Source: Siphonodentalium dalli | Lineage: Eukaryota > Mollusca > Scaphopoda > Gadilida > Siphonodentaliidae | NCBI GenBank assembly: GCA_032622095.1 | Contig: CP136064.1 | Span: forward strand, 260,255,863-260,319,862 | Reading direction: 5' to 3' | DNA length: 64,000 nt | Position numbers and translations under genes: made by a program | In this document: piece by piece, positions 1,202 through 52,936 of the stretch | How the letters are laid out: every line of letters begins with the position of its first letter | Position numbering within the stretch: the first letter of the stretch is position 1 | Notes under the pieces: model-generated | What the model was told of the DNA's origin: nothing | Database searches by the model: none | The model's input: the letters and a program-made list of their open reading frames with translations, nothing else

Positions 1202-1536
1202 CCCTTTACCCAACAGAAGGGCCCTGTGCCAATGCATTCTCTTATATATGCGAGTCGACCATAGGTCGCCTCGCATATATAAGAGAATGCATTGGCTTAA
1301 CACATTAAATTTTTTTAGGCCAATGCATTCTCTTATATATGCGAGGCGACCTATGGCCGACTCGCATATATAAGAGAATGCATTGGCACAGGGCATAACT
1401 GTAACCATCACAATGTGGTCAATGAGCCGGTTCCAATGATATCCATATGTGTATGGTTCTATTGAGACAGACCGAAGATATTTTAGGCTGTTGAAGCTTT
1501 ATTTGGCCGGTTTTGGCCGGTTTGTTGGGTAAAGGG
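1202..1536. mobile_element. TTAA-flanked piggyBac-like MITE, family B1, in intron of gene 1
   Basis: TTAA lies at 1198-1201 and 1537-1540. The ends are CCCTTTACCCAACA and TGTTGGGTAAAGGG. Inside are two hairpins with AATGCATTCTCTTATATATG arms. The right end is only 26 nt from the exon at 1567, so the branch point of that intron must lie in or next to the element. Confidence 0.88.
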
Positions 1537-1566
1537 TTAAAGTGAATTCTCTGGGCTTTTTTTCAG

Positions 1567-2294
1567 AATCCAGCAGTGGTTTGCAAGTTGTAGATGTTAT
1601 GGTACCAAAAACGACACCAAGCTCTAATACAGGGGCTGGTGGCAACAATAGACCTGGTGGCATTCTTGGCAGCCTTTTCGGAGGTGGCAGAGGTGGTAGC
1701 CTCATGGATATGCTCCTGCGAGGACAAACAGGAAGCCCATTAGGCGGAAACATGGGAATATTAAATTCAATTTTGGGCGGAAGAAGTGGAGGAGGTGGTA
1801 CTTCGCAACTATTACAGAGCCTGATTGGTCGAGGCGGTCAGCAGACACAAACAGGAAGTTCATCAAACAATGTCCTGCAAAGCATTCTGGGTAACAGCGG
1901 ACTGGTAAATGGACAAACCCCAGCACTGAATAACCTTCTACAGCAGATAAGGGGCAATGCCGTGTCGACAGGAACACAGGCTAACACTCAAGGCATTCTG
2001 GGTAATGGCGGACAGGCTAATGTACAAAACCCTGCACTGAATACACTTATGCAGCAGATACGAGGTAATGCTGGCTCAACCGGAACACAGACTAACTCGC
2101 AAAACGCTAATTTGAATGCTTTAATGCAAGAAATCAGAGCTCAAGCTGGACAGGCAGCGGCGACGCAACAAAGTGGAGGGGGTATCAACCCACTGTTTGG
2201 ACAGTCGTCATCGAACACCAACTCAAATCAGCCCAACGGAGGAACCAGTAGCAACAGTCTGGCCAGTTTGTTTGGATCATTTGGGCGGAAATGA
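1567..2294 (+). CDS. Last exon of a Gly/Asn/Gln-rich repeat protein (partial)
   Basis: The exon starts after the acceptor CTTTTTTTCAG (intron phase 1) and ends at TGA 2292-2294; it encodes about 242 residues. The N-terminal part is Gly-rich (GILGSLFGGGRGG and GILNSILGGRSGGGG). The middle holds three copies of a repeat of about 35 residues with core ALNxLxQQIRGNA followed by STGTQxN. The tail is Ser/Asn-rich and ends in SLFGSFGRK. There are no Cys residues, membrane segments or catalytic motifs in this exon. Composition is like that of secreted structural or shell-matrix proteins, but this is only a resemblance and no family is recognised. The 5' exons lie left of the window or under the transposons at 19-1536. 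The upstream in-frame GTG at 1542 is intronic. Confidence 0.72.
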
Positions 2295-2316
2295 GTGGGA
2301 GGGTCCCAATGAAATT

Positions 2317-2322
2317 AATAAA
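2317..2322 (+). terminator. Poly(A) signal AATAAA of gene 1
   Basis: A canonical AATAAA lies 22 nt after the TGA stop of the upstream exon. It supports this being the terminal exon, with a very short 3' UTR that would end before or in the palindrome at 2357. Confidence 0.65.
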
Positions 2323-2356
2323 CGTTTGAAGTCAGAGACAACAATCTGTAAAAGTA

Positions 2357-2569
2357 CAGTAATGCTCTAATTAATCGACCTCTTAACCAAAGCAGAATTA
2401 TGGGTAACTTTTCTGGATTTAGTCAGAAATATGGCTTGTTGCCATTCATCGGAAAGCTCTCGGGGAGAGCTTTCCGATGAATGGCAACAAGCCATATTTC
2501 CGACTAAATCCAGAAAAGTTACCCATAATTCTGCTTTGGTTAAGAGGTCGATTAATTAGAGCATTAAAG
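2357..2569. mobile_element. Family C palindromic TA-flanked MITE (mariner-like)
   Basis: A near-perfect palindrome of about 210 bp with ends CAGTAATGCTCTAA and its complement, flanked by TA on both sides. The arms contain GGAAATATGGCTTGTTGCCA. CAGT ends with TA duplications are typical of Tc1/mariner-mobilised MITEs. It lies directly after the poly(A) signal of gene 1. Confidence 0.8.
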
Positions 2570-2744
2570 TAGCTTACAGTATGTAATGAGTGTGTGATAA
2601 GTAAAACACTCAACACCATGGTGATATTTTTTGGAGTGTGATTTTATAGTGATCCACTCAGCACCGAAAGCTTGAGTGGCGAGGATTAGCGAGCGCTATG
2701 GTGTGATTAACATGATGGTGGCAGTTTTATTAAAACCTCACTTC

Positions 2745-3170
2745 ATACGACCATGAATCACCACAACACACCATGAATCACCGCAACAAACTATGAATCA
2801 CCGCAACACACCATGAATCACTGCATCACACCATGAGTCACTGCGGCACACCATGAATCATCGCGACTCACCATGATTGATTAATCACTGCAACACACAA
2901 TGAATCACCGCATCACAACATGAATCACTGCGACACACCATGAATCACTGCGACACACAATGAATCACCGCAACACACCATGAATCACTGCGACACACCA
3001 TGACATGACCATGAATCACAGTGACTCAACATGAATCACTGCAACACACCATGAATCACCGTGACACACCAAAAATCACCACAACACACCATGAATCACC
3101 GCAACACACCATGAATCACTGTGACATACCATAGATCACCGCAACACACCATGGATCATCAGTAATCACC
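2745..3170 (+). repeat. Minisatellite with CACCATGAATCACCGCAACA units
   Basis: About 20 imperfect units of 20-22 bp, CACCATGAATCACCGCAACA and variants. It has no coding potential and no spacer-repeat structure. Confidence 0.9.
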
Positions 3171-3254
3171 AAGAACATGCTCAACACAATTATCAATATT
3201 TAGTTATTACTGTTATGAAATAAATCAAAATGCCGAAAGATATTCCAAGTAGTA

Positions 3255-3515
3255 GTCGGTATTTTGCAGCGATTCTCAGTGGTTCACGGTGATTCTTGGT
3301 ATGTCCTGGTCAGTCTCCAGTCTTTAGTGGTGATTCTCAGTGGTTCATGGTGATTCTCAGTGGTTCGCTGTGATTCTCAGTTGTTCCCGGTGATTCTTGG
3401 TATGTTCATGTCAGTCTCCTGTGTTTAGCGGTGATTCTCAGTGGTTCGCTGTGATTCCCTGCGATTCTCAGTGGTTCGTGGCGATTCTCAGTGATTCGTG
3501 GCGATTCTTGTTAAG
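3255..3515 (+). repeat. Minisatellite GGTGATTCTCAGTGGTTC
   Basis: An array of units of about 18-20 bp (GGTGATTCTCAGTGGTTCGT and variants). The unit shares GGTGATTC with the complement of the preceding array, so the two arrays look like inverted relatives. Confidence 0.85.
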
Positions 3516-3550
3516 CCCTCCAGGCTAGGATTTCTGTCGACTCATATTAA

Positions 3551-3923
3551 CCCTTTACCCAACAAACCGGCCAAAAAAAGCTTCAACAGCCTAAAATATC
3601 TTCGGTCTGTCTCAATAGAACCATACAAATATGGATATCATTGGAACCGGCTCCTTGATCACATTGTGATAGTTACAGTTATGCCCTGTGCCAATGCATT
3701 CTCTTATATATGCGAGTCGACCATAGGTCGCCTCGCATATATAAGAGAATGCATTGGCCTAAAAAAAATCTTTTTTTAACACTTTTTACCATTTTTTCTT
3801 ACATTCTTTAACAATTTTATAATTTTTAATGTGTTAAGCCAATGCATTCTCTTATATATGCGAGGCAACCTATGGTCGACTCGCATATATAAGAGAATGC
3901 ATTGGCACAGGGCCGTTCTGTTC
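3551..3923. mobile_element. Family B1 piggyBac-like MITE lacking its right terminus
   Basis: The left TTAA (3547-3550) and CCCTTTACCCAACA end are intact, and both internal hairpins are present. The right end stops at CCGTTCTGTT, without the expected GGGTAAAGGGTTAA. It is followed by a second copy (3927-3960) of the 34 bp that precede the element (3517-3550). Confidence 0.85.
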
Positions 3924-4189
3924 TAGCCTCCAGGCTAGGATTTCTGTCGACTCATATTAATCCGCTCAATGCAAATTCACCATGGATCACAACAAACAAT
4001 AAATCACTGTGAATCCCGATTATCCAGTGTTGAGTGTTTTGCTTATCGCTCACTATTTAAATACTGTATGTGTACACAAACAGCCAGTAAACACATCAGA
4101 ACCCGTCTGTTGGTAGCAAACTCATGTAGCTCAAATAAACACAAATTAACCCCTGCACAAAGAGAAACAACTGCAATGTGTTTATAACT

Positions 4190-4295
4190 TAATCCTTCTA
4201 TGATAGGAGATTCCTGACATTTTGCTAAAACCCTGTGCCAATGCATTCTCTTATATATGTGATTCTCGCATATATATAAGAGAATACATTGGCAT
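4190..4295. repeat. Partial family B2 hairpin element
   Basis: A decayed left end (CCTTCTATGATAGGAG) and one hairpin (AATGCATTCTCTTATATATG) remain; the right end is absent. The 4296-5038 stretch that follows holds only short local repeats (CATTTTCA...ATTACCATGATCGCATCG, three times at 4297-4440) and otherwise nothing recognisable. Confidence 0.6.
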
Positions 4296-5046: not shown

Positions 5047-5463
5047 CAAGCCTGAGTTCAGTGTGCCTGTCATTTTCAGATTGAGGCACCCAGAGGGTGA
5101 ATTTAGTGACGCTACCCGCACAGTGGGCTAGTATCACCAAATTCAACCTCTTGGGACCTCATTCTACGTTGCCTCATCTGATATGGAAATAGACTCAGAT
5201 TGAAGTTCCCAAATGGTGAATATTCTGATGTACACCCATTGGGAACCTCAATTATGCAATATGTCGTCTGCCAATCTTGGGATATAGAGAAACTAAACTA
5301 AAAAAGAATGTGAAGAAGTTTCTATAGAAGATGAGGCTTAAGCAGAGTGAGGTCCACAGAGGGTAAATTTGGTGATGCTAGCCCACTATGCAGGATAGTA
5401 TAACTAAATTCACCTCTGGGGGACCTCATTCTGCAAATAACAGGCACACTAAACTCAGGCCTG
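5047..5463. mobile_element. Family A long variant, copy A3, 8-bp TSD
   Basis: The ends are CAAGCCTGAGTTCAGTGTGC and its complement, flanked by TACAAAAC at 5039-5046 and 5464-5471. Between the two hairpin arms is an extra segment reading GGGATATAGAGAAACTAAAC, which marks the long subfamily seen also near 18.6, 29.6 and 53.2 kb. Confidence 0.85.
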
Positions 5464-5549
5464 TACAAAACATGTCACATTATAAACAGTTCTCCCTTTG
5501 TTGGAAGTGTTGCAACGGATGAGAGACCAATCTTCAAACTCACATTTAA

Positions 5550-5906
5550 CCCTTTACCCAACAGAACGCCCAGAAACGCCCTAACAGCCTAAATTATCTT
5601 CGGTCTGTCTCAATAAAACCATGGAAATATGGGTATCATTGGAACCGGCTCATTGAGCACATTGTGATAGTTACAGTTATGCCCTGTGCCAATGCATTCT
5701 CTTATATATGCGAGTCGACCATAGGTCGCCTCGCATATATAAGAGAATGCATTGGCCTAAAAAAAACTTTTTTTTAACACTTTTTACCATTTTTTCTTTA
5801 ATATGTGTTAAGCCAATGCATTCTCTTATATATGCGAGGCGACCTATGGTCGACTCGCATATATAAGAGAATGCATTGGCACAGGACCGTTCTGTTGGGT
5901 AAAGGG
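5550..5906. mobile_element. Family B1 piggyBac-like MITE (complete)
   Basis: TTAA is at 5546-5549 and 5907-5910. The ends are CCCTTTACCCAACAGAA and TTCTGTTGGGTAAAGGG, with two hairpins. This copy is a good reference for the family structure. Confidence 0.9.
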
Positions 5907-9170: not shown

Positions 9171-9181
9171 AAGTTGGTGAA

Positions 9182-9532: not shown

Positions 9533-10462
9533 CCCTTTCAGTGCCAGGGACCGATCTCATTGGCCCTAATTTATGGTCTGTAAAATCGTCCCTAAAAATT
9601 GAATTTTTTTTTTTTTTATAGATTTTTTTGGGTTGATTTTTTTGGGTATGCTTAAAGGCACGTGCGGCCTTAATTGTCGAAAATATTCATATTTGTTCCA
9701 AACACCGTAAACAGAAAAACATTAAAACGCATACAGTTCCGTTCATATATACCATGACCATCGCGTAAACAGCATGTTATCATAAAGACCTACTATATTT
9801 TACCTAAGCAAGAGTCTGATTGTGTTACAGAAGACAGCACAATGCTACTGGCTAATCACACACAAATGGCATAAACGCTCTTTATTAGTTCCATATCAGG
9901 TATTCACCAACAAAGAACGCTCTTTATGTTTACCATCATAATATAAACAAACACCAGAAAAGTTACTTTTTATGCTTTTGTTTACATAACAATGGTCAAA
10001 CTTATGACCATAACATACTGTTTATGCGATATTTCTTATTTGTATACGTACACAGTCTGACTACATTTTGATGTTCTTTCTGTGTGTGGCGGTTTTTGAC
10101 GGGTGTAAATATTTTCACAGGATACCCACCGCCAAGGCCAACCGTAACTTTAAGCATGCTATAGCGAATTTAAAAACAAACTGGTTAAAACCTTAGGGGC
10201 ATGTTATAACTCAAAACTATCACCAAGTATTCATAGTAATAATTTTGATGCCCATGAAAAATGTAAGATTCCCTGGCACTAAACCAACAAAATAAGTTTG
10301 TTAAAGAATATAAGAAAAAATTATTAAAATTGTAAAAAATTGTAAAAAATAATAACAAATAATGAAAAATTGTTAGGCCAATGCATTCTCTTATATATGC
10401 GAGTCGACCATAGGCACAGGGTATATGGGTTGATACAAAAATCGGACCTGGCACTGAAAGGG
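9533..10462. mobile_element. Family B3 TTAA element, long copy
   Basis: TTAA is at 9529-9532 and 10463-10466. The ends are CCCTTTCAGTGCCAGGGACC and GGACCTGGCACTGAAAGGG. Near the right end is the left arm of the shared hairpin (AATGCATTCTCTTATATATG) joined directly to GGCACAGGG, so the right hairpin arm is missing. It is about 700 bp longer inside than the 226-bp copy at 52055. No ORF of note. Confidence 0.85.
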
Positions 10463-11679: not shown

Positions 11680-11904
11680 CCCTTTTATGACAGGAGCTTA
11701 CTGAAATTTTGGAAAACCCTGTGCCAATGCATTCTTTTACATATGCGAGTCTCCCATAGGGCCTAACAATATTTACCTTGACCTTGTAAGCCAGTGCATT
11801 CTCTTATATATGCAAGGCTCCCTATGTGAGACTCGCATTTATAAGATAATGCTCTGGCACAGGATCTTTAATGATGAACCAGTGCAGCTCCCGTCATGAA
11901 AGGG
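11680..11904. mobile_element. Family B2 piggyBac-like MITE
   Basis: TTAA is at 11676-11679 and 11905-11908. The ends are CCCTTTTATGACAGGAGC and CCCGTCATGAAAGGG. One full and one half hairpin with the ATGCATTC core lie inside. Confidence 0.85.
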
Positions 11905-12926: not shown

Positions 12927-15900
12927 CTGGAATTAAATCATAATGAATATGAGTATTTGATAGTCTGGCAACAATGATGCAAGTTTGCATGCGTTGGGGG
13001 CGATGTCTTCTCCATCAACATTGATGGCAGGAAAAATAAAAATATTTAGATTTTTTTTAAATAACTCCAGCAAAGTGATGTGAATAACATCAGTAGACCC
13101 TCTCTGATAGCAATCAATCAAACAAAATTACACTGAGACCCATTACTACGTCTTAAGGACAACAACCCTCCAACAGCTATTTTTAAATAAAGGAGAAAAA
13201 CAAATTAATTGGGCAATTAAAACAATATGTAAGTGTACAATGAAGAAACCAGTTACAGGTTAACATATCCCATGATGGATGCTATAACATTCAAAATAAC
13301 TTTAAAGTGATGTGAAACGCTCCGGTTGGGTGTTCAAATGGAAATGGAGAATAATCTTGCTGAACCCTTTAACCAACAAAGCGGCCAAAAACGCCCAAAT
13401 AAAGCTTCAACAGCCTAAAATATCTTCGGTTTGTCTCAATAAAACCATACAAATATGGATATCATTGGAACCGGTTCATTGACCACATTGTGATGGTTAC
13501 AGTTATGCCCTGTGCCAATGCATTCTCTTATATATGCGAGTCGACCATAGGTCGCCTCGCATATATAAGAGAATGCATTGGCCTAAAAAAAATCTTTTTT
13601 TAACACTTTTTACCATATTTTCTTACATTCAGGCCCCACGCTAGGAGGCGACTCGGGCGAGAATTTCGCCCTCGGGCCGGCGAAGTCACCCTCGGATGTC
13701 CGCAAGGCGAAAACGAAGTCGCCTTCCAAATTTGACAAAACTAGCTCAGGATTTACGGTAATTTTACCGGTGAAAATTAGACTCGTTTCTGCTCGTTTTG
13801 CAAAACAAATATATATAGTCTCAACTGTTCCAACGAGGCATTTTATTTATAAATTATACATGGTGTACCCTATCCACATATTCTAATCAGATTGGGTGCT
13901 TTTGGAAATGGCAAATTGCGCTGAGCAACGAAGTTTATGATGAGCTACTGGTTCGTTTTAAGGAGACTGGAATTTAGACCTTACTTCCGTCGGGTCATTT
14001 TGTAACCGCAAATTGTATAGCCATACATGGTTTCCACTGCTCATGCAGTAGCCAAAGTGAACAAATAATACTGTCTTTGAAATTAAACTAATACATATCT
14101 ATGAATTTTCACTTTTACAAAAGTAGTTTGTGTCGGATTCCGTTTCCCAATCCAACTTTTTACTTTTTGGAATTGCATTTTATTTTGTTTACAAACAAGA
14201 ACACGTGCTTGCTTACTATTAAACACAGAGGTTTGAATGTGCGTTGGAAGTACTTAATTTAATGTTCTTAGTTAAATCAAAGATCTACATAATAAACTAT
14301 TACTATCCAAACTCATTTAAAAGGATTAATTTGTGTCAAAACTATGTGTTTGCAAATTACAATTGTTGTCAATCTATCGCTCAGACCACGTGCTCCGCGT
14401 ATATACCGGTACGTCTTGCAAATTAATTGCATGTAGGCCTACTTCGTTACAATGCAGGTATTTAAATAACCTGCTGGTGCATATTATAAGCTCAACTGGT
14501 CTCTGTTAAGAACACATTAACCACTATTGTGACACGGCTATCAAACTCGTCAAGTTTATTGCTTTAATCGGATTATAATCAGACAACACTGACGGTCGTG
14601 ATGTAGTCCAGACTAAATTAAAAGCTTTTACACCTCCTTAATTAGTCCTTATTGTTTATTTTAACGGACACCCACATTACAGCAATGGCCAAAAGCCATT
14701 TCCAAAAATTTAAATTTATAATAACAATTCAGATATTAAAAGTTATGAAGTAGACAATTAATTTCTTCAGATAAAAGTCAACAGTTTAAAAAAAAATTAA
14801 AGTGATAAATTTAGTTAAAATTTTAGATTATCGATCTATACAGGTGCTATACTTGTGTTGTATCTTGCTAAATATGTTTTATCTTGTTGTTTTATCTTAT
14901 TTATTGATGTGCAGATAAATAAAGCGAATTTTGAAAATTAGTAAGTATTTTTTTTTATAAGTCTCCCTATTCTGGCTCAAGTCTCCCTAAAATCTGCAGA
15001 GGGAGACTTCATTTCTCCCTGTTTTCAATACCTAGCTTGGGCCCTGCTTACATTCTTTAACAATTTTATAATTTTTAATGTGTTAAGCCAATGCATTCTC
15101 TTATATATGCGAGGCGACCTATGGTCGACTCGCATATATAAGAGAATGCATTGGCACAGGGCCCTTCTGTTGGGTAAAGGGTTAAAGTAGTTATTATTAC
15201 GAATATTAATCCAAATTTCCAGCACACACACCGTCATTCTTATATATTAATTAAATCCAATGACTCACGATGGCAAAATCATTTGCGTTAGTTTATCACT
15301 GATTGTTGCGTCCCGAATTATGATGTAAATATTTACAATTATGCGTAGTTCAAACGATGATAGCTATGGAGTGGTATTGTCGATTTATGTGAGATTTTCG
15401 GGGATGTTAGTAGATTGCTACATTCCCACAGTTGTCATAGCGCCTGAGTACTAACTTATCAGTTTCACACACCCGAACAAGTCCGTAATATGTCTTTAAA
15501 AGATGTTATCAACTCCTCAGTCAATCTGACCTATGCTGAGCTCAAAATATCACAAGAAAACTGTGGTGCTATCTGTTTTTCGTGTGCGGTATTTTCATGT
15601 TACCTTACTCGTATTTAAATTCGCGCAGTACTAATTTAAAACTGAGCGAAATATAATATACGACTCCCAAGTTTAATCTATAAGATAAAATAAAAGAGTG
15701 CTATGTTGCTGAGTTTACATATATTATGAACGGTTGAATAGAAAATTACGCCTATACATGTATGCATATATTTACATTCGGCTAACCGCTATCCAGACCT
15801 TGCTCACGATCCTAACAACAAATCATGGTAACGTAGATATTGTTGAAATGCTTGTATAAGAAATATTAATAGTCCAGGTCGCCACAAAATTATGATGTAT

Positions 15901-18900
15901 GCGGTTACTAGTTTATTGTCTGCACGATGTAAATCCGCCGCGATGGTGTTTAATATACACATATACTAAATCCAGCAATGACTAAGAGCCGAAACTGTCA
16001 TCAGCTCCAAGATAAACGAAAATATCACAGAATTATTACAAAATAGTTTTCTCAGTTTTGAATTCGCGCAGCTAGGTGCGCGAATTTAAAGTGCGCGAAT
16101 TCATAACTGAGCGAAAAATAGTACTGCGCGAATTTAAATACGAGTAAGGTAGGTAACATCTAGACAAACTGAATGGTCAATCGCCTCAAATTTTCAAGCC
16201 TGCTGAGTTAATTTAATCACCTGGTTCATATTTCATGCGTAGCTCTTGATTCTTCAGCGTGATATTCATATTACGGTTTTCCAGTTTAGTCTTCTCTTTC
16301 TCGATCTCAAACAAATCTTTCTGTAGCTGTAAGGCTTTATTCTTTTCATCCAGTAAACTAAGGTTCCTATCGGCTAACTCCTGTCGAAGAGATGTGAGTT
16401 CCTCCCTGTAATGAACAGAAACAACAAGTTCAAGCTGGTGTAATACAAATGTAGAGGTTGTTGGCCTCACGTCCCCCAAGAAGGTGGCTTAATTCGACAG
16501 TTGGCTTTCTTTTATGAACAAGAAAGATAAATTTCAGTCTGAATGAACCCAGACTATTGACAGAGTTCATACAGTAAATTGAAGGCAAATTACCATGACT
16601 ATTCCTGTTTGTTATATGCTTGCAGAACTGTAGATCATAGTATGTATCTCTTAGAAGCCACAGTGAAATAGTGTTGAAACGATTATCCGACTAATCAACG
16701 TCAACGTGATAATTAAATTAGTTATCCCAAAATCTGCTAGTTGTTAGTTGGGGAAAAACTACTACCTATTTGCTATCACGATAGCAGTGCCATTGGACTT
16801 AATTATAACACTTAATTAGCATGCTAGAGCCCTATTGTATTGTTCATTTTGATGATGCCAGCATGGCCGCTGCTGTCAGTCATGCACTAACAATGAACTC
16901 AGTGAACTGAACTCAACTTAAGTGCACATATCGGATTGGTTTCTTTTTTGTTGATCATAAAGACTTCAAAGAATCGGTGCCGATTGCTACACTGTGACGT
17001 AATTGATCAGTGATTATTTATTTTATTGGAAAAAAGTGTACTAGAATAGTCATCCCCATAAAATGGCTCAAAGAATATATGAAATGTCTGTTCACATCGG
17101 GAAGCGATCCATGTTTGATCAGAAGTAAGCACCAGTAGAGCGGATTCAGTGGAACATTTTCACGAAAAATAATTGTTGCCCAGCCACCTGTTTATTTCAC
17201 TTAAATTGCACTTCCGTTTTCGGACTCAAATTATGGAGCCATTCACCAGCATATGTATCTATCAAACACTATTGTGTTTATACCATATGGCGCATTTTAT
17301 ACCTATGTCAATAGAAATAGAAAATTTCAGGACGGGTCCGTCTAATTGACGAGTATTCAATTACCTCTGTCGACTCCTGAAAATTCTAAACTGTTTCAAC
17401 ACAACAGTGAAATACGAATTCATTATTTCACTGTGCATATCTTTTGTTATTTCACTGTAGCTTTATGGCGGCTTATGCAAGTGCAAATAAATATGCCCAG
17501 TACATACCGGACTCTACCTGTTTGTAAACACTGACACATGATCTTCAATTAAGTAGAGTTAATAATTTAATTTAGCAACTTTGAGCATTAACCCTTTACC
17601 CAACAGAAGGGCCCTGTGCCAATGCATTCTCTTATATATGCGAGTCGACCATAGGTCGCCTCGCATATATAAGAGAATGCATTGGCTTAACACATTAAAA
17701 ATTATAAAATTGTTAAAGAATGTAAGAAAAAATGGTAAAAAGTGTTAAAAAAAGATTTTTTTTAGGCCAATGCATTCTCTTATATATGCGAGGCGACCTA
17801 TGGTCGACTCGCATATATAAGAGAATGCATTGGCACAGGGCATAACTGTAACTATCACAATGTGGTCAAGGAGCCGGTTCCAATGCTATCCATATTTGTA
17901 TGGTTTTATTGAGACAGACCCAAGATAATTTAGGCTCTTGAAGCTTTATTTGGCCGGTTTTGACCGGTTTGTTGGGTAAAGGGTTAATAAGGCACATATT
18001 ATAACAAGAGCATCACTAGGGAGTGGCAACATATGCCATAATCGGCTATAACTCAGGTGAAAATTGCAGGCAGAACCCAAATTCAAACTTGACCTGTATT
18101 TTGGGCTAGTAAACTCACCAGATCAGACTTACTAAAGTTATCATATGGAAACGAAAAAAGTGAACGGACGGACAGACCGATGGACCGATAACATAGGTTG
18201 TTTTTTCCCAAAAGTGCCTATAAATAGAATGCCTACTTTTTTGTTTGAATACTTCAAACATCTCAATCTTGTCTGGAAATAAATATTGAATTTTCACTCA
18301 GGGCTCTTTTGATAATTCTTTCCAGAAACTCATGAGATATGTCGGCATTCAAACAAAAACTGTGCGTATTCTCTATTTAGATCTACTCTGATAATCAGTG
18401 TATTTTTAAATCTTCAACCAGGTTTCCATCATCAACTCTGCCAGTGATATTGGTAGATGCTGACAAAATGAACATTCCATCGAGGCCTGAGAATATGGTG
18501 CTGGACATTTGCAGAATAAGGTCACAGCGGGCTAGCATCATCCTCTGGGGACCTCATTCTGCATGGCCGCATCTGCTATGGGAGACCTAGATACAGATTT
18601 AAGTTCCCAGATGGTGATGTTCACCCGCTGGGCACCACCCATTGGGCACCTCAATTATGCATTGTGTAATCTGCCAATTTGGGGATGTAGAGAAACTAAA
18701 CTAAAAAAGAAACTTTCTAAAGAAGTTTCTAAGGAAACTAAAATACTTGATAATTTGATAACAATAATAAGGCCAAAGCATAATGAGGGCCACAGAAGGT
18801 GTATTTAGTGATGCTAGCCCACTGTGCAGGGTAGCGTCACTAAATTCGCCTTCATTTCACAAGTACATGGTCGAGATTTGGTTTATTTTCAATTATTTAT

Positions 18901-21900
18901 CAAAATTTACTGTATTTTATTCTTATACTCAATTTTCTTGGTGATGGTATATTTCAAGTTCATATTCATTCGATTGGATTTATTAGTCACATCTGTGTGG
19001 TCTACTTCATTCATATTGTGTAATCACATACAAACAAATATTTCAGATACTTTTCCTTAACTTTTTTACGCCATGAGTGAGATTTCCGGTCTATTCCAAG
19101 AGCCTTGACTCGTGGGGTAGACCGCCAATATCACAAGTGGTGTAAATTTGTTTTATAGATATACTATCTGTATATTATGCAGTAAGGTCGCGAAAGGTCA
19201 AACTGTCTGTAGTTCCTACTTTGTGTATATACTATTTCAATGAAAAAGAAACGGCGATCTATATACGGGTTGTACCGCTATATACATTTAGTGCCGAATA
19301 GAGCAAATGATTATCCTACTGATGTGCACATGTAGTAAAACACCCGATCGTGGTATATATAACCTTGGTGTGGTCTGCTCTCCTACTTGGGAAATAATAC
19401 TCACTCTTTGCATTTTATGATAGTAGTTAGATATTTTGCGTAATCACTGTCTGAACTAGTGTTCTTTGTATCAGCATGTTCTTGGTTGAATTCTTCCAAT
19501 TTCTCCAAATAACTTTTCTACAATATATAATTAATACCATTGACATATCTATGTTTATCCATATTTTCTCACCACATGCAACTATCACACTCTGCTAATC
19601 CCCAGGTTAATCGGGCAAATAAAAGATTTTCTGAATTTCTGTAAACAATTGCACATGTTAGGATACATTTATATATATTTATATATGTAGTTTTTGTAGA
19701 CATGAGTAGCTCTAATCACCGACTACATTTGACAACATGGTAAGCGACATCTCCCTTCACGTAGGCACCATTTGATTGCACAAAACAGTTCTCATTTCTA
19801 ATTACACGTTCCAATACAGACCCAAGATGCCACCTCAGTGGTGTACCTTAGACATAAAACTTTAGGAGGCTGTAAACGTCACTAATACTGTGTAGACGTA
19901 CCTGTAAACGTCACTAATACTGTGTAGACGTACCTATAAACGTCACTAATACTGTGTAGACGTACCTGTGTCTTTTCTAGTTCATCCTTCTCTTTGAGGA
20001 GTTTCATGATATTGTCCCTGGCCTTCATTAGCTCCTCCTGTAGGTGTTTTACTTGGTCATTGTCTGCCGTTCCAGTGGACATCTGTAGCAATACAACCAT
20101 TTGCATCTGGAGAAGAGAATTTATTATTATCTCAAGCGTGACATACGTTTATAAAATAATTTTGTACTCATTATGTATCTTTAATAGTGTGGCCTTGAAT
20201 ATTCTATGATTTCCCTATGGAAATTTTGAGGAACCGTTCAAGTAGTGCTCTTTCTGAGAGTCTGTATTTGGAATAGAGGACATCAATTGCAATCTTGAGG
20301 CTTCGGAACCTGTTATTGATCGAACTTCAATTAGTTTTTGGATACTTTGTGTCAAGGTTGTTAAAAAAATAGTAAAATTAGGTATATTTGCTTGTTTGAT
20401 AAAAGTATAAATTCTAGTTAGTTTCATTGTGAATATCAGATATTTTTTGCCCATTTGCCTAAGTCTTCATCTGTTCAACACACCCAATGCGGGTTTTGTA
20501 AAATTTCCTCGATAAAAAAATTATGTTTTATTTATGGTTGTAACTATGCTATTTATAGATTACTCTGGTTACCAAAAACATTCTATTCATTTTTGCCCCG
20601 GGTAAATTACCCATTCCACACTAGCGTCATAATTGGAATTAGCCCCTGGTGGTAAAGATAATACACAACAATATGCAAATACTAATCGTGTGAATAAAAT
20701 ACCTGATACCTTAAGCTTGTGGTGTTGTTGTTTCTCTAATTCGTACTTCTTCTTAACGGCGTCATACTCAGCTTTCATATTGATAACAACCTTCTCTGCT
20801 GCTATCCTTCGGTCTTCGACCTATAATGACATCGGTCCAAATTAATAAGAAATAGAATCTGACTGTTCCAAGGTTTGCAGTTTCATACATGAAACTAATA
20901 TAAAACTCTTGGTAAAAACTCTTAGTAAATGCATTAAGTTTCAATAACATTTACCGCCAAATGTAGGAATAAAAGCTCGGACAAATTTCTAAGTTAAAAA
21001 AGGGAACAACTCTACTAAGAAAAGTCATATGGACCTCATAATTGCAGGTGCAGAGGTTCCAACGGTACTAAATATCTGTGCCAAGTCTTTTTTTTTACAA
21101 AAAACATTTCTGAAAAATGTAGGAATACAAGCTTGTGCAAAGTTGTGTCCACGGATGGACAGACACACAGACAAGCTGATTCCTATATACCGCCTCATAA
21201 CTTCTTTACGAGGATATAATTACAATGATTACAAAAATAAAACAATAATTTATCAATTCAGCTCCTGCCTAAAATTTCTGTTCTCACAGACAGCATAGCA
21301 GACGTCAGATATATTAAGATTATTATCGGTGATTTATGTCATACTTCATTCCTTGGGTTTTGTTTGTAGTATCATTTAACCCTTCCATGACTGGAGTTTC
21401 CTGAAATTTTGCGAAAACCCTGTGCCAATGCATTCTATTATATAGAGTCTCCCATAGGGCACCTCGCATATATAAGAGAATGCACTGGCTTACAACATCA
21501 AGGTAAATATTATTAGGCCAATGCATTCTCTTATATATGGGAGGAGTCACCCACAGAGAGCCTCGCATATATAAGAGAATACATTGGCCTAATAATATTT
21601 ACCTTGATGTTGTTAGCCAGTGCATTCTCTTATATATGCGAGGCTCCCTATGGGAGATTCACATTTATAGAGAATGCACTGACACAGGGCAGTTTATGCT
21701 GCACTAGCGCAGCTCCCATCATGAAAGGGTTAAAGATGTTGCATCTCGTCCTGGCCACACTTACAATAACAACATAATTTTTATAAAACCAGATTTCAAG
21801 ACTACAAACAACTATTTCCTAAGGTAACTACTCATCAATGATGCTTTTAGTATAGAAAGGGTTAAAGATGGTCTATCTCTTCTGGGCCACAATAACAACA

Positions 21901-24900: not shown

Positions 24901-27900
24901 TAGTACTAGTACTAGTAATTGTCAGTGAATTTAAATTCAATGACATCCAGTTATTTTCAATACCTACTAATACATGTACAAGTATTAATTAGGGGTGCCA
25001 CGATTAATCGTATAATCGATGAACCGTTGATAAAGCCGATAATCGATTACCATTTCCGTCGTCGATTAATCTGCGTTATTTATTTCGGACGTTGGAAAAT
25101 GCCGGTTATTGTTGAATACCCTGATAAGAGATTCCGACAACTTGAGTACTACTAGTATATGTTGCAAACAGCCGGCAGTTCATTTGATGACATGGTTACT
25201 CTTCGAGTCATTGTATATTCTTCAAATTGCATGGCGCCATGATGGCGCACTGCAGCTTTGAACTTATGCCGACATCGTTGTATATTTCTACAAGAAAGGC
25301 GGCACTACGTCTTTGAAATGGACTGACTGTCAGTGAACTGAATGCCCTCGCCCTTGAATCTCATTGGACCAAAGGGGAGTTGATTGACATTCTCTCGATA
25401 TCAGGGAACCTACGGCATTTTAATCAGCGATATTCTCGGCGGTGTCATTTGCAGCAAGTATACTTTGTTTGTATAAGTATACTTAGATGTTACTAGTACA
25501 GGCTATCGCTTATAGTGTGGTGACTGCTAAATGAAATTAACTATTACCAAATTTGCGGGCAGGGGCCCACCTTTGTAATTGTTATCATGCTCTGGAAGTT
25601 CGCTGAAACTTATAGTTTCCGTAACATTAGATTCCTTTTTTTTAGGAACCACCGTCGGTCCGTCGTGCATTCCTACTTTTATATTGCTTGTATGTTTGGC
25701 TGTTAAATTAATCGCTACGTTCGTTCCAATGAACTCACAAATATTATAACCATGACATCGCCGAGAACTGTGCTTGTATTGAACACATTGTGCTCATTAG
25801 TCATTACCGGTGGTTTATGATGCACTTTATTAACACAAAAATTACATCAGCCGAAGCCTCAAACAAGCAGCGAAAGCAGTTAACCAGCATCCAGCCAATA
25901 TGGCAATAGGCCATATTACGGAATACTTCTACTGATGTTATTATTATTATGTACGATTAATCGATTATAGTCGATTATTGACTACCGATTATCGATTATC
26001 AAAATAAATAATCGTGGCACCTCTAGTATTAATACCGGTTTATGTACTAGTAGTAGTGTTAGATGGGGTTGAGTGTCATGACATTGGTGAATAGTCATAC
26101 TTTTGAGATCTGATGATTAGTTGATGCGGACATACTTGCATCATAAGTCACCCTTTCCAATACTGTTACATATATATATTTTTATAAAAGTGGTGTTTTT
26201 TTTAAATTTCAAATTCCAAACGAGCAAGAGTTTTGGTGAGAGACCAATTCGGTTTTATGCTCGTCTATCATTGATTTCCAGAACAAATTTTATACAGAAT
26301 GAAAATATGCCAGAATATAGTTTACGCGAATGAAACTATGTTTACTAGAAAGTCAAACTTGCTCAGTATTACACTAGTCGCCACTGCCTACTAACACCAG
26401 TAATGGTTTTAAAATAAAAAATTAAATTGATTGAAACACCTCTGCATGCTTTACATCGGCTAAAAAAAGTCTGTATACATCACCATTCAGACCGAGAAGA
26501 ATATTTACATTATTTGCTTTCGGTCATACTAATATATCACTTCTGCTTATTTATCGCGTTATGGCATGTTACATACAATCTTGTTTAAAATTAATAAAAT
26601 TAATAAACCGGAATAAGCTCATATAGGGTGGCAATTTTCATGAAAAAAAATAAATGTACATGTACATGTATTCGGGACACAAGAGTATTAATATGTATAA
26701 ATAGGTATACTTAATCAGCGCTGGTGGTATTACTGTTGTCTTATCAACTCACAAAAGACTCATGGTTAAAACAATGACAGTCTATGTATCAGTCTTTATC
26801 TGACTGTGTAACTTATAAATTACATTAATACTGGTCAGGCCTTAAAATTCTTGCTAGAATCAAAATATAGCATTTCTACAGCAAATCAGCTGCTTTTACG
26901 AGAATTAAATATCACAGATTCATCCGTAGGAACGTCCCTCTATGAGGGTAAAGGAACTGGTCACATTGGTTACTAACCAGCTCATCTTGCAGCTCCATCT
27001 TCTCGTGAGTGAGGACAGCTATTTCCTCATTACAGTGGGACGATGTGGTGATGTCATGCTGTTCTGTCTTCTGTGTCAGAAGCTCTTCAAGCTTCTCAAT
27101 CTTTGAGTTAAGCTGGTCAAGATCATCTACATGCTGCTTGTTGTCCGACTGTAGCTCATTTATCTGAAAATAGACGATTATTAACCCTTCCATGACTGGA
27201 GCTATCTGAAATTTTACGAAAACCCTGTGCCAATGCATTCACTTAACAATACTTGCATAAATAAAAGAATGCACAGGATTTTTAAAGCTGCACCAGCTCC
27301 GGCATTCGCAGCTCCGGTCATGAAAGGGTTAAAGTGATGTGAAACACTCTGCTGAGGTGTTCAGAAAGTAATAACAAATAATCATGCCAATACAGTAATG
27401 CTCTAAATAATCGACTCCTTAACCACATCAGAATTATGGGTAACTTTTCAGGATTTAGTCGGAAATATGGCTTGTTGCCATTCATCGGAAAGCTCTCTGA
27501 GAGCTTTCCGATGAATGGCAACAAGCCATATTTCCGACTAAATCCTGAAAAGTTACCCATAATTCTGATGTGGTTTAGGAGTCGATTATTTAGAGCATTA
27601 CTGTAACTTCATAAATTTTATATCCATATTTTATAGGTCCAGTTTCATGGTTGAGGCGAATGTCATTTACGTCATGTGATGTCAATGGGACGCATATATA
27701 GCACACATGTGGCATAGGGATTTGTATATATTTGTAAATAAATTATTTGTAAATAAAGGAAGAACACTGTAATTCTGGGAACAAGTTTGTAATAAAAATC
27801 TAACTTTAGATGACAAGCCAGGGTATATGGGAGCGCACATCAAGCCTTGAAATAGTGAGTCTGTCATTTGCAGAATGAGGTTCCCAGAGGGTGAATTTAG

Positions 27901-47534: not shown

Positions 47535-50500
47535 GTACGTCTGGTCTGTGACACCCATGAGTATATGTATTTATTATATGACTATCGTTTTTCTTTCCCC
47601 AATACCGCTATTGTATAGCGATAATTTGCAGTTTGATCCGATGTCATACCACCCTTCCTCATCTCGCATACTGCGCATGACCGGAAAAAGCAGGACAGTT
47701 CTTTCTTTATTTTTGATACTAACGAGCGTGTGAATTGGTTTCATTTCATAATTAATGAGAGAAATTGTGCTTTTTAAATAAAAAATCATGTGGTTTTTAA
47801 ATAAAAAGCATTTCATATAATAAACCTGTTATCGCTGCAGTGAATTGATCTGGGCTTCGCATCACGTCTCGTTGAAGAGGTCAGATCGCTGGATCAAACT
47901 CGACGCCTGCGGCGGCTCGTTTGATCCAGCGATCTGACCTCTTCAACTCGACGTGATACTTCGCCCCAGATCAATTCACTGCATCGATAACATGTATGTA
48001 TGGCCTTGAGACACATGCGATAAATACACATACGTCTGATCTCGGCAGGGTCGTGGCGGGTATTTGTTTGGCGTGGGGGGGGGGGTGTTCAACTTCTAAT
48101 TTCGAATCCATGTCCCCCCCCCCCGAGACTAAAACTCCACCTCTTTAGTTGGAATTTTCCAACTCATATATAGCTCAGACTGTAAAACTGGTCGGCTGTA
48201 TGGTTGAACATTTCCATCTGAAAATTTTATTGAAAGTATGATAATACTTAAATATTTTCTGAAAATAACTTATTTTATTTAATTACATAAGTTTTGGCTG
48301 GAAAAGTTATTACACTATTTTCAACCTACTCTTTGGACTGAAATTTCAACCTTGATTTTGGGTAATGTTTGGGGGTGGGGGCTATAGAAATCACCGGTGT
48401 CAGTGTCTTTTTTTATCTTCAATAATAATAGATGAAATAAAAAAAATGAAAAATGTGGTATGTGAGCTTATTGGTAGGGGCTCAGGTCAAGTTCGAATTA
48501 TGGGTGACATTTGCCTTTTTTCTGCAGTTATGGCCCTTGTTGACTTATTTTGGTTTCCGAATGATAACTTTAGTTTTACTAGTAGTTATCTGATTTTTTT
48601 TAAATTTCATATATGGAGTACTCTCATGAAAATATAGGTCATGTTTAATTTGTGATCACCTCATAGACTTAGAATTTACTGATTATTCTGGTGTCTAATC
48701 AAATAAAACCAGGTTCGTTAACAACATAAGATGGCTGGAAGCAAAATTTGATTCAATGATTGTTCCCAGAATAAAAAATTTCATTTCTGAAAAAGTCACC
48801 AGTCAAATTAAGCCACCTTATTCGTGGGGCATGTGGCCTAGCGACCTTTTATCATTGTTGAAATCGGCAAGCTTTAGAATATCATATTCCTTTTATACGC
48901 CCTTTAAAAAAAAAGGTTGTATCATGTAATCAGTCTGTCCGTCCGTCTTTCGTACCATCTTAACATTTTTGGTTTCCAACCGATAACGCCCCAGCAGTGC
49001 ACTTGTTATGTTTTCCTCTCTCTCTCTCTCTCTCTACAGCATCATATGAAATATCAATAAAGTAATCAATCAGTAATTGTCTTGTCCGTTTCAGGTGAGA
49101 AGCCTTATAAATGTCTTGTTACTGGCTGTAACAGAGGCTTTGCTCAGCTGTCCAATCTGCAGCACCATATGCGAAATCATGATGATCAAGTTAAGAAAGC
49201 ATCCTCTAGAGCATACCAGTGTTCTACGTGTCACAGGACATACGCATTCGAGAACAGTCTGAGAAATCACACTCTCAAGGTAAACATGCCTGCAAATAGT
49301 GTGTCTGTCATTTGCAGAATAAGGTCTCCAGAGGGTGAATTTAGTTATGATATCCCACATTGTATATCAAATATGTGACCCGCCATATCAAATCCAGTCG
49401 TAAGTCGGGATTTTTTTCACCCTGTGCCCATGCATTCTCTTATATATGCGAGTCGACCATAGGTCGCCTCGCATATATAAGAGAATGCATTGGCTTAACA
49501 ATTTTTTATCATTTTTTTTAAATAAATGTTTCTTACAATTTTTAGGACATAAAATAAAAAAAATCCATTACCCTGCAGGGAGCCCCACACATATAGAGAA
49601 GCATATAGAAGAGTGTCGTCTGCTCATGTTTGTCTGGGGCTCTGTATGGGTGAAATTATAAAATTGTTAAAGAATACAAGAAAAAATTATTAAAATTGTA
49701 AAAAATTGTTAGGCCAATGCATTCTCTTATATATGCGAGGCGACCTATGGTCGACTCGCATATATAAGAGAATGCATTGGCACAGGTAAAAAAATCCCGA
49801 CTTACGACTGGATTTGATATGGCGGGTCACAATTATCACAGAGGGTTAATTTAGTTATGATATCCCACACAGTGGGAACCTTCTTATGCTTAGGCCTCAT
49901 CTTCTGGAAAGTATCTATAGTCTCAAATTAAATTTATTTTAGTTACTTTTTCCCTTCTGTTCAGTTTCTATGATACCCTTAATTTGCAGAAGATAAAATG
50001 CATAATCGAGGTGACTAACAGGCGAACGTAACCAACTTCAACTGGGGAACTGGGGAATTTCAATTGATCCTAGGTCTCCCATAGCAGTTGAGTCCTAAGC
50101 AGAATGAGGTTTGCAGAGGGTGATTTGGTGATGCTAGCCCTGCATGCGGGATAGTGTCACTGAATTCACCCTCTGGGGAACTTATTCTGCAAATGACAGA
50201 CACACTATTTGCAAACATGAAGATAAAGGCCAAAATCCAAGATGGCTGCTGTCGAAAATAAAAAATCATTCAAATTCTATAGCTCCTATCAAGACGTGAT
50301 CCAAAACATTCCTGTAAATTTTCAAAACAAATTCTCCAATAAATGCTGGTTGCAGGGTGCGCGGTGGATTCAAATTTGAAATCCAAGATGGCTGCTGGTG
50401 GCCATGTTTTTAGCGAATTTCGGGAAAGAAATGACCGCTCCCATCTAGAGGTCACCCTGAAGATCCCTGAGGTTTGGTGATGACCGGACGAGGCAGGTGG

Positions 50501-52936
50501 CCTGTAGGGTGTGCCAAAGGCTTTGGTCATACAAAGATTAAAATCCAAGATGGCTGCTGGCAGTCACAATTTTCAATGAAATATGGAAACAAATTATGGC
50601 TCCCATCTGGAGGTCACCCAAAAGATCCATATGAAGTTTGGTGACAATCAGATGAGGGATGTGGTCTGTAGGGTTTGGCAAAGGATTTAGTCATGCAAAG
50701 AGTAAAATACAAGATGGCTGCTGGTGGCCATTTTTTTCATAAAAAATTGATATCTCCTATCTAGAGGTGATCCAAAACATGCCTGTAAATTTTCAAAACA
50801 ATTCTCCAATGAATGTGGGCTGCAGGGTGTGGCGATGGATTCAAATTTGAAATCCAATTTCACAAAAAAATGATGGCTCCCATCTAGAGGTCTCCCTGAA
50901 GATCCATATGAAGTTTGTTGACGATCGGATAGAGTCATAGAGATGTGACCTGTAGTGTCTGCTAATGGAAATTGTTGACAGACGGACAGATGGTGGACGC
51001 CAACCTATGGCAGTAGCTCAAACTTGATTTCGTCAAGTTGAGCTAACAATAAAGATGTAAAAAAAGATGACTTTAATCATATTTTTAGAAAGGATATTTT
51101 GGGAGGAGCTTTCTCAGCAAGTATACAAATTGATTGGAAATGCATAAGTGCCATAAAAAGTACATGATTTGAACTAGTGAAAGGTTAAAATGACTATTTA
51201 TTTAATTTTTGAAATTTTATTGTTCTATATTATGCTTGATGTGGTCTTCAGTTAGTATAGATTCCTTCATGTGGTGTACTAGCTTATTAATTAAGTAGTT
51301 TTCTGTGTAGGTCACTCTAAACTTTCCATAACCTGAGATAGGCTCGGCGTGGAAACCCCTTAACCCTTTCATGACGGGAGCTGTGCAGTTGCAGCATTAA
51401 ATACCCTGTGCCATTGCATTCTCTTATATATGCAAGTCTCCCATAGGGAGCCTCGCATATATAAGAGAAAGCACTGGCCAACAAGATCAAGGAAAATATT
51501 GTTAGGCCAATGCATTCTTTTATATTTGCGAAGCACCCTATGGGAGACTCTCATATGTAAGAGAATGCATTGGCACAGGGTTTTCGCAAAAAATCAGGAA
51601 GCTTCTGTCATGAAAGGGTTAGTAATTGATTTTATAACTGATGGGAGATTCCATTTAGTATAAAAAGTATTCATGATTCCAGTCTTCGAGTAAAAACATC
51701 ATGCAAGATCTGATTTTAACACAGTTTACATGTATACTTTGTTCTGCTTAAAATAAAATGTTGGAAAGCAAATGTGACATAAAAACTAGACCAAAACAAA
51801 ACTGCATTTTGTTGCAATGTGTTTTTTAGCTCACTGATTTCAACCATTGTTGTTATACAATCGCTTACCACACTGTCTCAAATTAGTGTGAAAATCAGGT
51901 TTATCCCTAGAATGTTGCTGATTTTGGGGTTTCCAGATGGTCACTTAAGTAATTGTGTTCCTACCTGCCCGTGTTTGAATTTGTACCATGGGTGTATGCC
52001 AGCACTGGCAGTGAAACTTCTTGTTTCCGTAAACGATGAACAACAATTTGTTAACCCTTTGAGTGCCAGGGGCCGATCTCATCGGCCCTAAACCTACAAA
52101 ATAAGTCTGTTAAAGATTATAAGAATAAATTATTAAAATTGTAAAAAAAAAAAAAAATTGTTAGGCCAATGCATTCTCTTATATATGCGAGGCGACCTAT
52201 GGTCGACTCGCATATATAAGAGAATGCATTGGCACAGGGTATATGGGTTGATACAAAAATCGGACCTGGCACTCAAAGGGTTAAACTTTATTCTTATCAG
52301 TATCTTCTCTAATTCATTTAACAGGTTCATACGAAGGACAATTCTTCTGAAAGTTTACCGACAAAAACATACGAGCCACCAATAATGGTTCCTGTAACAT
52401 CAGCTCCTGTGTTTTTAGTGAAAAATATTATCAGTGACTCAACTAACTGTGAACAACAAAACTCTGGACGATCTGTTAGCGTCTGTAGTCCAAGAAGAGA
52501 TGGTGCATCAGACCTGACTCCTATACACCACTCTAGTGCGCCAGATTCAACGTTAAATCAGACATCTCTGGAAATGTTATCAGAACTAACTCCTATACAC
52601 CACTCTAGTCATGAGATGAAAGTATTGCCAGATTCATCATTTAAACAGACATCTCCGCAACCGTTCCTTCCAAAACAAATCGGATTAGAATCAAGACACA
52701 ATTATAATCAAAGATATGATGATTATGTCCGGAGTCAACATGGAAGAAGTTCGGAATGTTTCATTTCTCAAAGTAGCATTGCTTCAAGTTCTGACGATGC
52801 TGGCGCTCTGGTGCAAAACTTACCTGTTCACATGGGAGATAACTCTCCTGTGGCAATCACACATCATGAGGTTTCTCTACCAGGAGATATCAGTGATTGT
52901 GTTCAAGAAATTGTTATATCTAGTACAGATAGTTGA
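47309..52936 (+). CDS. C2H2 zinc-finger protein, rotund/squeeze/ZNF384-like (whole gene span)
   Basis: Three coding exons (47309-47534, 49095-49279, 52325-52936) join to 340 residues. Four C2H2 fingers: 26-46, 54-74, 82-104 (C-X4-C) and 118-139 (H-X4-H), with a TGEKPYKC linker formed across intron 1. QLSHLQQHARIHTG followed by a CLVTGC finger with FAQLSNLQHHMRNH closely resembles the QLSHLQQH and QLSNLQSH fingers of the rotund/squeeze/ZNF362/ZNF384 transcription factors. The fourth finger and the long Ser-rich tail are diverged. Expected role: nuclear sequence-specific DNA binding. The start could instead be ATG 47216 (371 residues), but an acceptor-like TTCTCTGACAG at 47285-47295 favours 47309 or an upstream exon. 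The closest subfamily is uncertain. Confidence 0.83.
47828..47991. repeat. GC-richer palindromic MITE in zinc-finger intron 1
   Basis: GTTATCGCTGCAGTGAATTG ... GAAGAGGTCAGATCGCTGGA and complement; arms of about 75 bp. ORFs nearby are not real. The rest of the intron to 49094 holds a TC microsatellite (49013-49035), a G/C homopolymer pair near 48075-48124 and a diverged copy of the 44.4-kb tandem repeat. Confidence 0.75.
49095..49279 (+). CDS. Zinc-finger gene, exon 2 (ZF3 and most of ZF4)
   Basis: Acceptor GTCCGTTTCAG precedes GTGAGAAGCC; donor CTCAAG|GTAAAC. It encodes EKPYKCLVTGCNRGFAQLSN through NSLRNHTLK, residues 77-137. The last His of ZF4 comes from exon 3. The donor lies inside an 8-bp sequence (AAGGTAAA) duplicated by the adjoining transposon. 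Confidence 0.88.
49285..50219. mobile_element. Family A hAT-like element, copy A10, at a splice donor
   Basis: CATGCCTGCAAATAGTGTGT to CACACTATTTGCAAACATG. Flanks AAGGTAAA (49277-49284) and AAGATAAA (50220-50227) are a one-mismatch 8-bp duplication that covers the exon 2 donor. It is interrupted by the element at 49374-49831. Long-variant interior. Confidence 0.82.
49374..49831. mobile_element. Family K element: shared two-hairpin cassette with CCCGCCATATC ends
   Basis: The ends are TGTGACCCGCCATATCAAAT and ATTTGATATGGCGGGTCACA, followed by TCGTAAGTCGGGATTTTTT. The interior is the same two-hairpin cassette as family B1 (AATGCATTCTCTTATATATG arms). A 29-bp piece of host element A10 is repeated on both sides (49331-49359 and 49841-49869). 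Confidence 0.83.
50225..51045 (-). repeat. Tandem 'AAGATGGCTGCTGG' repeats with a hairpin tail
   Basis: AAATCCAAGATGGCTGCTG or a close variant at about 50231, 50379, 50540 and 50705, each followed by CTCCCATCTRGAGGT. The block ends with GACAGACGGACAGATGG and a hairpin AGCTCAAACTTGATTTCGTC. ORFs of 69-92 codons on the minus strand are by-products. Confidence 0.7.
51364..51618. mobile_element. Family B2 piggyBac-like MITE
   Basis: TTAA at 51360-51363; the right TTAA has decayed to TTAG (51619-51622). Ends CCCTTTCATGACGGGAGC and GCTTCTGTCATGAAAGGG, two hairpins. Confidence 0.83.
52055..52280. mobile_element. Family B3 TTAA element, short copy
   Basis: TTAA is at 52051-52054 and 52281-52284, with ends CCCTTTGAGTGCCAGG and CCTGGCACTCAAAGGG and one complete hairpin. 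It ends 40 nt before the acceptor of the last zinc-finger exon. Confidence 0.88.
52325..52936 (+). CDS. Zinc-finger gene, last exon
   Basis: Acceptor TTCATTTAACAG precedes GTTCATACG. It begins VHTKD, and this His completes ZF4, which supports the splice. The remaining 200 residues are Ser/Thr-rich and likely disordered, with an internal repeat of SDLTPIHHSS / SELTPIHHSS and DSTLNQTS / DSSFKQTS. It ends QEIVISSTDS, stop TGA. No AATAAA close by; the first good candidates are near 55.1 kb. Confidence 0.88.
   Translation, partial: VHTKDNSSESLPTKTYEPPIMVPVTSAPVFLVKNIISDSTNCEQQNSGRSVSVCSPRRDGASDLTPIHHSSAPDSTLNQTSLEMLSELTPIHHSSHEMKVLPDSSFKQTSPQPFLPKQIGLESRHNYNQRYDDYVRSQHGRSSECFISQSSIASSSDDAGALVQNLPVHMGDNSPVAITHHEVSLPGDISDCVQEIVISSTDS

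Follow-up and report, generated by a model that had tools for sequence, protein, structure and literature searches.

A stretch of 64,000 nucleotides in the genome of the scaphopod mollusc Siphonodentalium dalli (contig CP136064.1, here C4, positions 260,255,863 to 260,319,862 of the forward strand; hereafter the window) carries many short elements that share a palindromic core, the cassette, and differ in their ends, the shells B1, B2, B3 and K. The arm of the shared hairpin, AATGCATTCTCTTATATATG, matches the window 43 times with up to 3 mismatches, compared to a mean of 0.01 in 100 shuffles. An earlier reading of the letters alone, the original prediction, held that one two-hairpin cassette is common to elements with four different terminal repeats, and this observation is borne out. 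The ends lie at the positions given there: B1 at 1202, 3551, 5550, 13365 (1 mismatch) and 17592, B2 at 310, 11680, 21380 and 51364 (1–2 mismatches to CCCTTTCATGACTGGAGC), B3 at 9533 and 52055, and K at 49374. Its list of elements needed correction in several details, which are included in the description below.

B1 elements with TTAA on either side occupy 1202–1536 (two hairpins, 1222–1296 and 1319–1393), 5550–5906 (two hairpins) and 17592–17983, a full-length copy with hairpins at 17612–17686 and 17766–17840 and a DNA fold z-score of −22. Two B1 elements are less simple than listed: the one at 3551–3925 (cassette 3684–3912) lacks its outer right end and has on its right a 34-bp direct repeat of its left flank, and the one at 13365–15181 has a spacer split by an insertion of about 1.5 kb, hairpins at 13508–13582 and 15087–15161, and its right end at 15181. 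By eye, the copy at 3551 is an aberrant insertion, flanked by a 34-bp direct repeat that ends in TTAA (3517–3550 and 3927–3960) in place of the usual 4-bp duplication. The B2 shell is represented at 310–719 by a composite with several hairpins, some of them extra, which has ends CCTTTCCATGACTGGAGC...CTCCAGTCATGAAAGGG and TTAA at its right; by elements at 11680–11904, 21380–21729 (three hairpins) and 27185–27328 (hairpin degenerate; missing from the list), all three with TTAA on either side; by an element with two hairpins at 51364–51618; and by a degenerate left end of B2 type, assigned by eye, that accompanies one hairpin at 4193–4294. Of the two B3 elements, the copy at 52055–52280 has one hairpin (52165–52239) and TTAA on either side, and the copy at 9533–10462 has the expected end, a single remaining hairpin arm (10380–10399) and an additional TTAA-flanked internal insert, which by eye is free of hairpins and spans about 9655–10150. 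The K element at 49374–49831 is not of the TTAA type and contains two hairpins and a K-specific centre. A further double-hairpin repeat, with arms CAGAATGAGGTCCCCAGAGGGTGAATTT..., is common in the window (19–280, 739–1018, 5060–5460 and 49300–49900); two inverted copies of it flank the B2 composite at 310–719, and the K element at 49374 seemingly lies, by eye, inside another.

The core starts with CCCTGTGCC, ends with GGCACAGGG and usually consists of two inverted copies of a near-perfect 75-bp hairpin with an AT-rich spacer between them. Each hairpin has a stem of 27 + 5 base pairs, the two parts separated by a single T-C mismatch, and a 3-base loop; folded as RNA it reaches −54 kcal/mol with a z-score of −13. 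Two hairpins in inverted order are usual in B1 and K, one is found in B3, and the number varies in B2. The core starts at the same base beside six flanks, namely the long and short ends of B1, B2a, B2b/B2*, B3 and K, where B2* denotes a more diverged form of B2 that combines B2 ends with hairpins of the B1/K type and usually an AT-rich array spacer. The spacer is built of an AT-rich unit that forms a tandem array in the B2* loci L156 and L164, with units of about 33–42 bp, and the spacers of B1, B3 and K contain a short stretch resembling this unit. The AT-rich spacer earlier reported as common to B1 and K is thus real and not confined to these shells, as similar T-rich units also occur in B3 and B2*.

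Across the 2.23-Gb genome (9 contigs), we counted exact matches as lower bounds, and the reversed-pattern control was 0 for the arm and for the end of each shell. The arm occurs 155,788 + 155,598 = 311,386 times. The 75-base hairpin consensus is the same at 75 of 75 positions in B1 (both sides), B3 and K, and hairpin divergence in these shells is 0.8–1.5% in a set that includes loci picked by an exact arm, which marks them as young copies. In loci selected by their ends, a sample mostly from contig C1 and biased towards copies with exact ends, the exact consensus hairpin accounts for 20 of 37 hairpins in B1, 9 of 37 in K and 5 of 18 in B3. A known RNA gene or microRNA family was considered for the hairpin and rejected, since none of the 26 Rfam matches (E up to 0.1) obtained for 4 loci attained the gathering score; viral contigs held 0 exact hairpin matches.

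Four shells and two kinds of target duplication

The commonest shell is B1, whose end occurs 45,789 + 45,832 times genome-wide, followed by B3 (11,558 + 11,674), K (10,785 + 10,812) and B2 (8,986 + 9,203, partly within satellite arrays), and most elements measure 225–460 bp. TTAA lies on both sides of 41 of 44 distinct B1 insertions, 31 of 35 B3 insertions and 7 of 14 B2 insertions, where the copies are diverged and AA/TT adjoins the ends in 10 of 14. The three shells share a terminal CCCTT motif (conforming to CC[C/T]T), which is also present on the piggyBac element L178, and these TTAA duplications and CCCTT ends identify B1, B2 and B3 as miniature inverted-repeat transposable elements (MITEs) of the piggyBac type. 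Shell K shows neither TTAA nor CCCT: its ends are TGTGACCC, in full TGTGACCCGCCATATC, TTAA flanks 0 of 22 insertions, and equal 2-bp flanks are found in 18 of 22, comprising TA/TA in 13 and other equal pairs (TT, AA, TG) in 5, with 4 unequal. Since the duplication and ends of K are unlike those of the piggyBac type, one and the same core is present in DNA transposons of at least two kinds. Comparison of the shells with one another revealed no visibly alignable sequence beyond CCCTTT, and about 130 bp of B1 long-end sequence have no visible counterpart in the consensus of the other shells.

Some of these sequences also occur in tandem arrays. The B2 end recurs in satellite-like arrays on C1 (3257437–3273395, 4325741–4329315 and 4907345–4924003) with steps such as 37 and 74 bp, which look as though the tip of a MITE had turned into a satellite unit, and L018/L019 have similar steps of about 33. 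Copies of B1 and of the cassette are also carried along in long tandem arrays at C1:727806–926263, whose steps measure about 14.56 kb and 11.17 kb. A separate tandem repeat with a 55-bp step (GATATTTAGTACTGGTTTTTATATGCCC) lies at the end of the window (63457–63931).

We surveyed the settings of the core with a census of 40 loci on C1–C5, picked by a rare arm variant and so blind to the shell, although skewed towards more diverged copies and possibly including a few duplicates. The four shells enclose 39 of the 40 cassettes (B1 16, K 9, B2 9, B3 5), 36 of them assigned by a shell end with up to 3 edits and 3 by broken ends read by eye (L126 B3, L137 K, L144 B2); L124 is without assignment. Among 44 regions drawn from exact arm matches on C1, 4 are without a clear shell (L032, L044, L046, L048). 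Conversely, hairpin arms (up to 4 edits) are present in 60 of 60 pieces for which the ends were the sole criterion (20 from each of B1, K and B3), taken from the part of the listed end pairs that was retrieved; a close B3 pair at C1:11580827–11580995 (168 bp), which may be without a hairpin, was left out of this set.

The identical start of the core beside six flanks, together with a few cores that have no known shell (L044, L172), would be expected of a cassette that moves, or once moved, on its own and, bounded by CCCTGTG/CACAGGG ends, inserts into other elements. We regard such independent movement as unlikely, as no consistent duplication is seen around the core, nearly all census cassettes lie in shells, and a cassette end directly abuts TTAA only 178 + 167 = 345 times genome-wide compared to 311,386 arms. 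Reading 9 such abutting loci identified 5 K elements, 2 of B2 type (L170, L171), 1 B1 without its short end (L166) and 1 without a known shell (L172), such that 8 of 9 have a shell or its remains, and on these counts an ordinary TTAA transposon made of the cassette alone was rejected as the main explanation. Locus L172 (C3:22824200–22825420) is a tandem pair of gene-like stretches, each with a cassette and a foldback T-rich spacer and with no known shell; its two cores adjoin TTTAA and count as one event.

Potential sources of transposase are present in the same genome. The piggyBac domain PF13843 has at least 128 genome matches, many of them open and some being two pieces of one gene. The piggyBac element L178 has perfect 16-bp ends, CCCTTTATCTGCTATA, at TTAA, and the piggyBac locus L009 shares the end CCCTTTCTATACT with a further MITE of the window. 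In 27 piggyBac loci the sole arm match lies beyond the CCCTTT end of L175, and, no arm falling inside these loci, derivation of the core from them is not apparent. The best end match among the 27 is at L184 (C6:126587900–126593100), where the end TTAACCCTTTACCCATCACATC equals 13 of 14 bases of the B1 end and the right end was not found; L184 is a candidate relative of the B1 transposase. Long-spaced end pairs were considered as autonomous copies and rejected: the inserts of L074 (B1) and L092 (K), the two pairs covered by an open reading frame search (which did not extend to L091, L093, L094 and L114), hold no closed frame over 120 amino acids, and L093 and L094 are each two separate K elements.

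Inheritance of hairpin and spacer

To compare the histories of core and shell, we left out loci picked by a hairpin variant and built trees from the hairpins and, separately, from the initial 50 bases of the spacer, with the shell as a label, since the shells could not visibly be aligned. In the end-selected loci (92 rows), the hairpin tree requires 26 label changes, compared to 27.9 (s.d. 2.2) after shuffling, and the spacer tree requires 4, compared to 39.3 (s.d. 2.5). The counts for all loci except those selected by variant (160 rows) are 41 against 43.1 shuffled for hairpins and 9 against 62.8 for spacers. Shell signal is absent from the hairpins and present in the spacers. No hairpin change became typical of a shell; with hairpins so nearly alike, this alone does not prove that exchange was repeated, and since every shell has retained a spacer of its own, nothing points to continual shuttling. 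The comparison of trees suggested alongside the original prediction, run here in part, therefore yields hairpins unsorted and spacers sorted by shell, a pattern other than simple congruent descent. Of the two explanations offered at that time, movement or recombination of the cassette between shells has to be invoked for K at the least, given its different kind of target duplication. The other, faster divergence of the shells, holds within families, where the hairpin has undergone far less lineage-level change than the shell or the spacer, and is insufficient for K.

This difference in lineage-level change emerges from differences shared by at least two copies, which we separated from private ones in end-selected loci only (18 B1 and 17 K elements). 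In B1, shared differences number 0 in 2,629 hairpin sites, 39 in 2,250 shell sites and 19 in 1,356 spacer sites, and private differences number 21, 28 and 26, respectively. In K, shared differences number 6 in 2,515 hairpin sites, 14 in 1,527 sites of the centre, 25 in 2,127 spacer sites and 12 in 993 sites of the inner ends, with 25, 61, 54 and 23 private differences. A larger B1 set that includes loci selected by an exact arm gives 33 private differences among 4,963 sites of the hairpin, compared to 21 among 4,369 of the shell. Because the B1 hairpin has no shared variants and its private ones are not clearly fewer than those of the shell, conservation of the hairpin acts mostly on source copies and lineages, with some loss of private mutations as well, clearest in K.

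The more diverged hairpins retain traces of paired change. In B2 and unassigned hairpins (34 distinct full-length 75-mers of 64), 33 double changes at true pairs are complementary, compared to 0 to 6 when the partner is slid by 1–3 positions; these cells count sequences, not events. The chief change is a loop swap from CGACC/GGTCG to CTCCC/GGGAG. Compensatory pairs are absent inside B1, B3 and K, where the copies are too young.

Conservation of the core at the level of lineages, and the TTAA and CCCTT retained by B1, B2 and B3, would also follow from simple descent, in which the ends of a single MITE lineage diverge fast and the core stays. Such an account is already contradicted for K, with its different ends and target duplication, and leaves the long-end sequence peculiar to B1 without a counterpart in other shells; we consider it unlikely.

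A probable B2-type source and new ends

The junction loci of B2* combine features of otherwise separate shells. L016 has a B2 shell, a hairpin of B1/K type and a T-rich spacer, and its exact junction occurs 12 times genome-wide, L016 included. A B2 end with up to 3 edits lies beside 10 of the 12 junctions (L155 has 4 edits and L164 has 6), and the array motif appears within the first 200 spacer bases of 10 of the 12 loci. L165 is complete, reading TTAA, B2b end, two hairpins, T-rich spacer, B2a end and TTAA. Hairpins of B2* (junction loci with L170, L192 and L193; 13 full-length of 16) show a mean difference of 5.3% from the B1/B3/K consensus, compared to 0.9%, 1.5% and 1.6% for end-selected hairpins of B1, K and B3, respectively. 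Both types of loop and both types of spacer occur within B2 as a whole, which is also more diverged than any other group, and for these reasons it fits an old source, with B2* the likely donor of the core.

We lean, with limited confidence, towards a reading in which the palindromic core of old piggyBac MITEs was re-dressed with other ends, on at least one occasion across transposon kinds, and was amplified with each. On this view, non-autonomous DNA transposons of one long-lived group have the shared cassette as their core, which most likely originated in piggyBac-type MITEs of the B2 shell. A B2* core, or a piece of it, would have come to lie between other ends, giving rise to B1 and B3 of the piggyBac type and to K with its 2-bp, mostly TA, duplications. 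New ends may have been gained through rare recombination, or through nested insertion combined with loss of the former ends; a transposase fitting its ends would then have multiplied each combination of core and shell. That the core begins at one and the same base beside six flanks suggests breaks close to the foot of the palindrome, a place where structure-specific nucleases could act. The core may have been kept through an advantage in multiplication to source copies whose palindrome is intact, as would arise if a cruciform helps to pair both ends. In rice, internal sequences alter the mobility of the MITE mPing (PMC9921582, as far as this source was available), and a role of the core in mobility is therefore possible. 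A bolder proposal, that the double hairpin acts in cis as an amplification module, independent of superfamily, which raises copy number between piggyBac or TA-type ends and was re-dressed several times, is one that we put forward only tentatively.

Several observations weigh against the re-dressing of a B2-type core. The 27 piggyBac loci drawn from the 128 matches yielded no autonomous element whose ends are identical to those of the shells, and two B2* junctions, at L155 and L157, lack the array motif. B3 copies without a hairpin (L020/L021), considered as empty shells, were rejected as such, being by eye the result of microhomology deletions. The order of transfer is irresolvable from hairpins this similar, contraction of arrays could inflate the contrast between spacer and hairpin, and 12 double changes at true pairs in the B2 set are non-complementary. 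No direct sign of hairpin activity emerges from this sequence analysis, and a function is unproven. Private mutations are also relevant here: on resampling elements, the rate in B1 hairpins relative to the shell is 0.66 (0.22–2.02) and relative to the spacer 0.42 (0.24–0.87), and K hairpins have ratios of 0.26 (0.11–0.97) to the centre, 0.41 to the spacer and 0.43 to the inner ends, a loss that selection or conversion between copies could explain. Conversion between abundant palindromes, together with recent origin, would account for the sameness of the core if it were a passive passenger without a role, captured a few times by chance, and both the low K ratios and the youth of B1, B3 and K hairpins are compatible with this. 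We nevertheless judge a passenger rather unlikely, as B1 shells and spacers are rich in lineage-shared variants where the hairpins of the same copies have none, and changes in the B2 set are often compensatory.

What causes the enormous copy numbers of some MITEs is an open question. Here a single genome sets four sets of ends, of two transposon kinds, round the same core, with tens of thousands of exact ends in the commonest shell, such that whether ends or core decide success becomes directly testable, and the elements themselves form a natural record of how new ends are acquired.

Comparison with known systems

Shells B1–B3 resemble piggyBac and other TTAA MITEs in their TTAA duplication, CCCTT ends, non-coding sequence and coexistence with open piggyBac transposases, and differ in that the arm is missing inside the 27 transposase loci examined. 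Shell K, possibly akin to Tc1/mariner-like MITEs, is short, has inverted ends and shows TA on both sides in 13 of 22 insertions, and departs from that pattern in its 5 other equal 2-bp flanks. Foldback and Galileo elements likewise have long palindromic structure and chimeric forms; their long repeats are terminal, whereas the palindromes described here are internal and the ends differ. Among open-licence papers, judged by titles and abstract openings, we found no earlier report of a core shared across superfamilies.

The closest precedent is provided by the CMITEs of the coral Acropora, described in 2010 as several TTAA MITE families that have different ends, in most cases CCCTTT, and a common 75-base internal region (PMC2872659). 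According to the portions of that paper available to us, the internal region is highly conserved, better than the ends, and of unknown origin; one element carried the internal region of another family, and tandem arrays were reported (PMC2872659). CMITEs measure about 100 bp, have TTAA duplications and, by estimate, number about 1,600 in A. millepora, and the main text leaves the reason for the common core unexplained and does not use the terms 'hairpin', 'palindrom-', 'stem-loop' or 'secondary structure' (PMC2872659). The elements of S. dalli are the same kind of case, as their core too is more conserved between families than their ends, and they differ in length (mostly 225–460 bp), in number (311,386 exact arms), in their double-hairpin core and in the presence of that core in the non-TTAA element K. 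Compared to what this source describes for CMITEs, the new features are a non-TTAA shell, a double hairpin with compensatory change, an array spacer that points to a donor, and scale.

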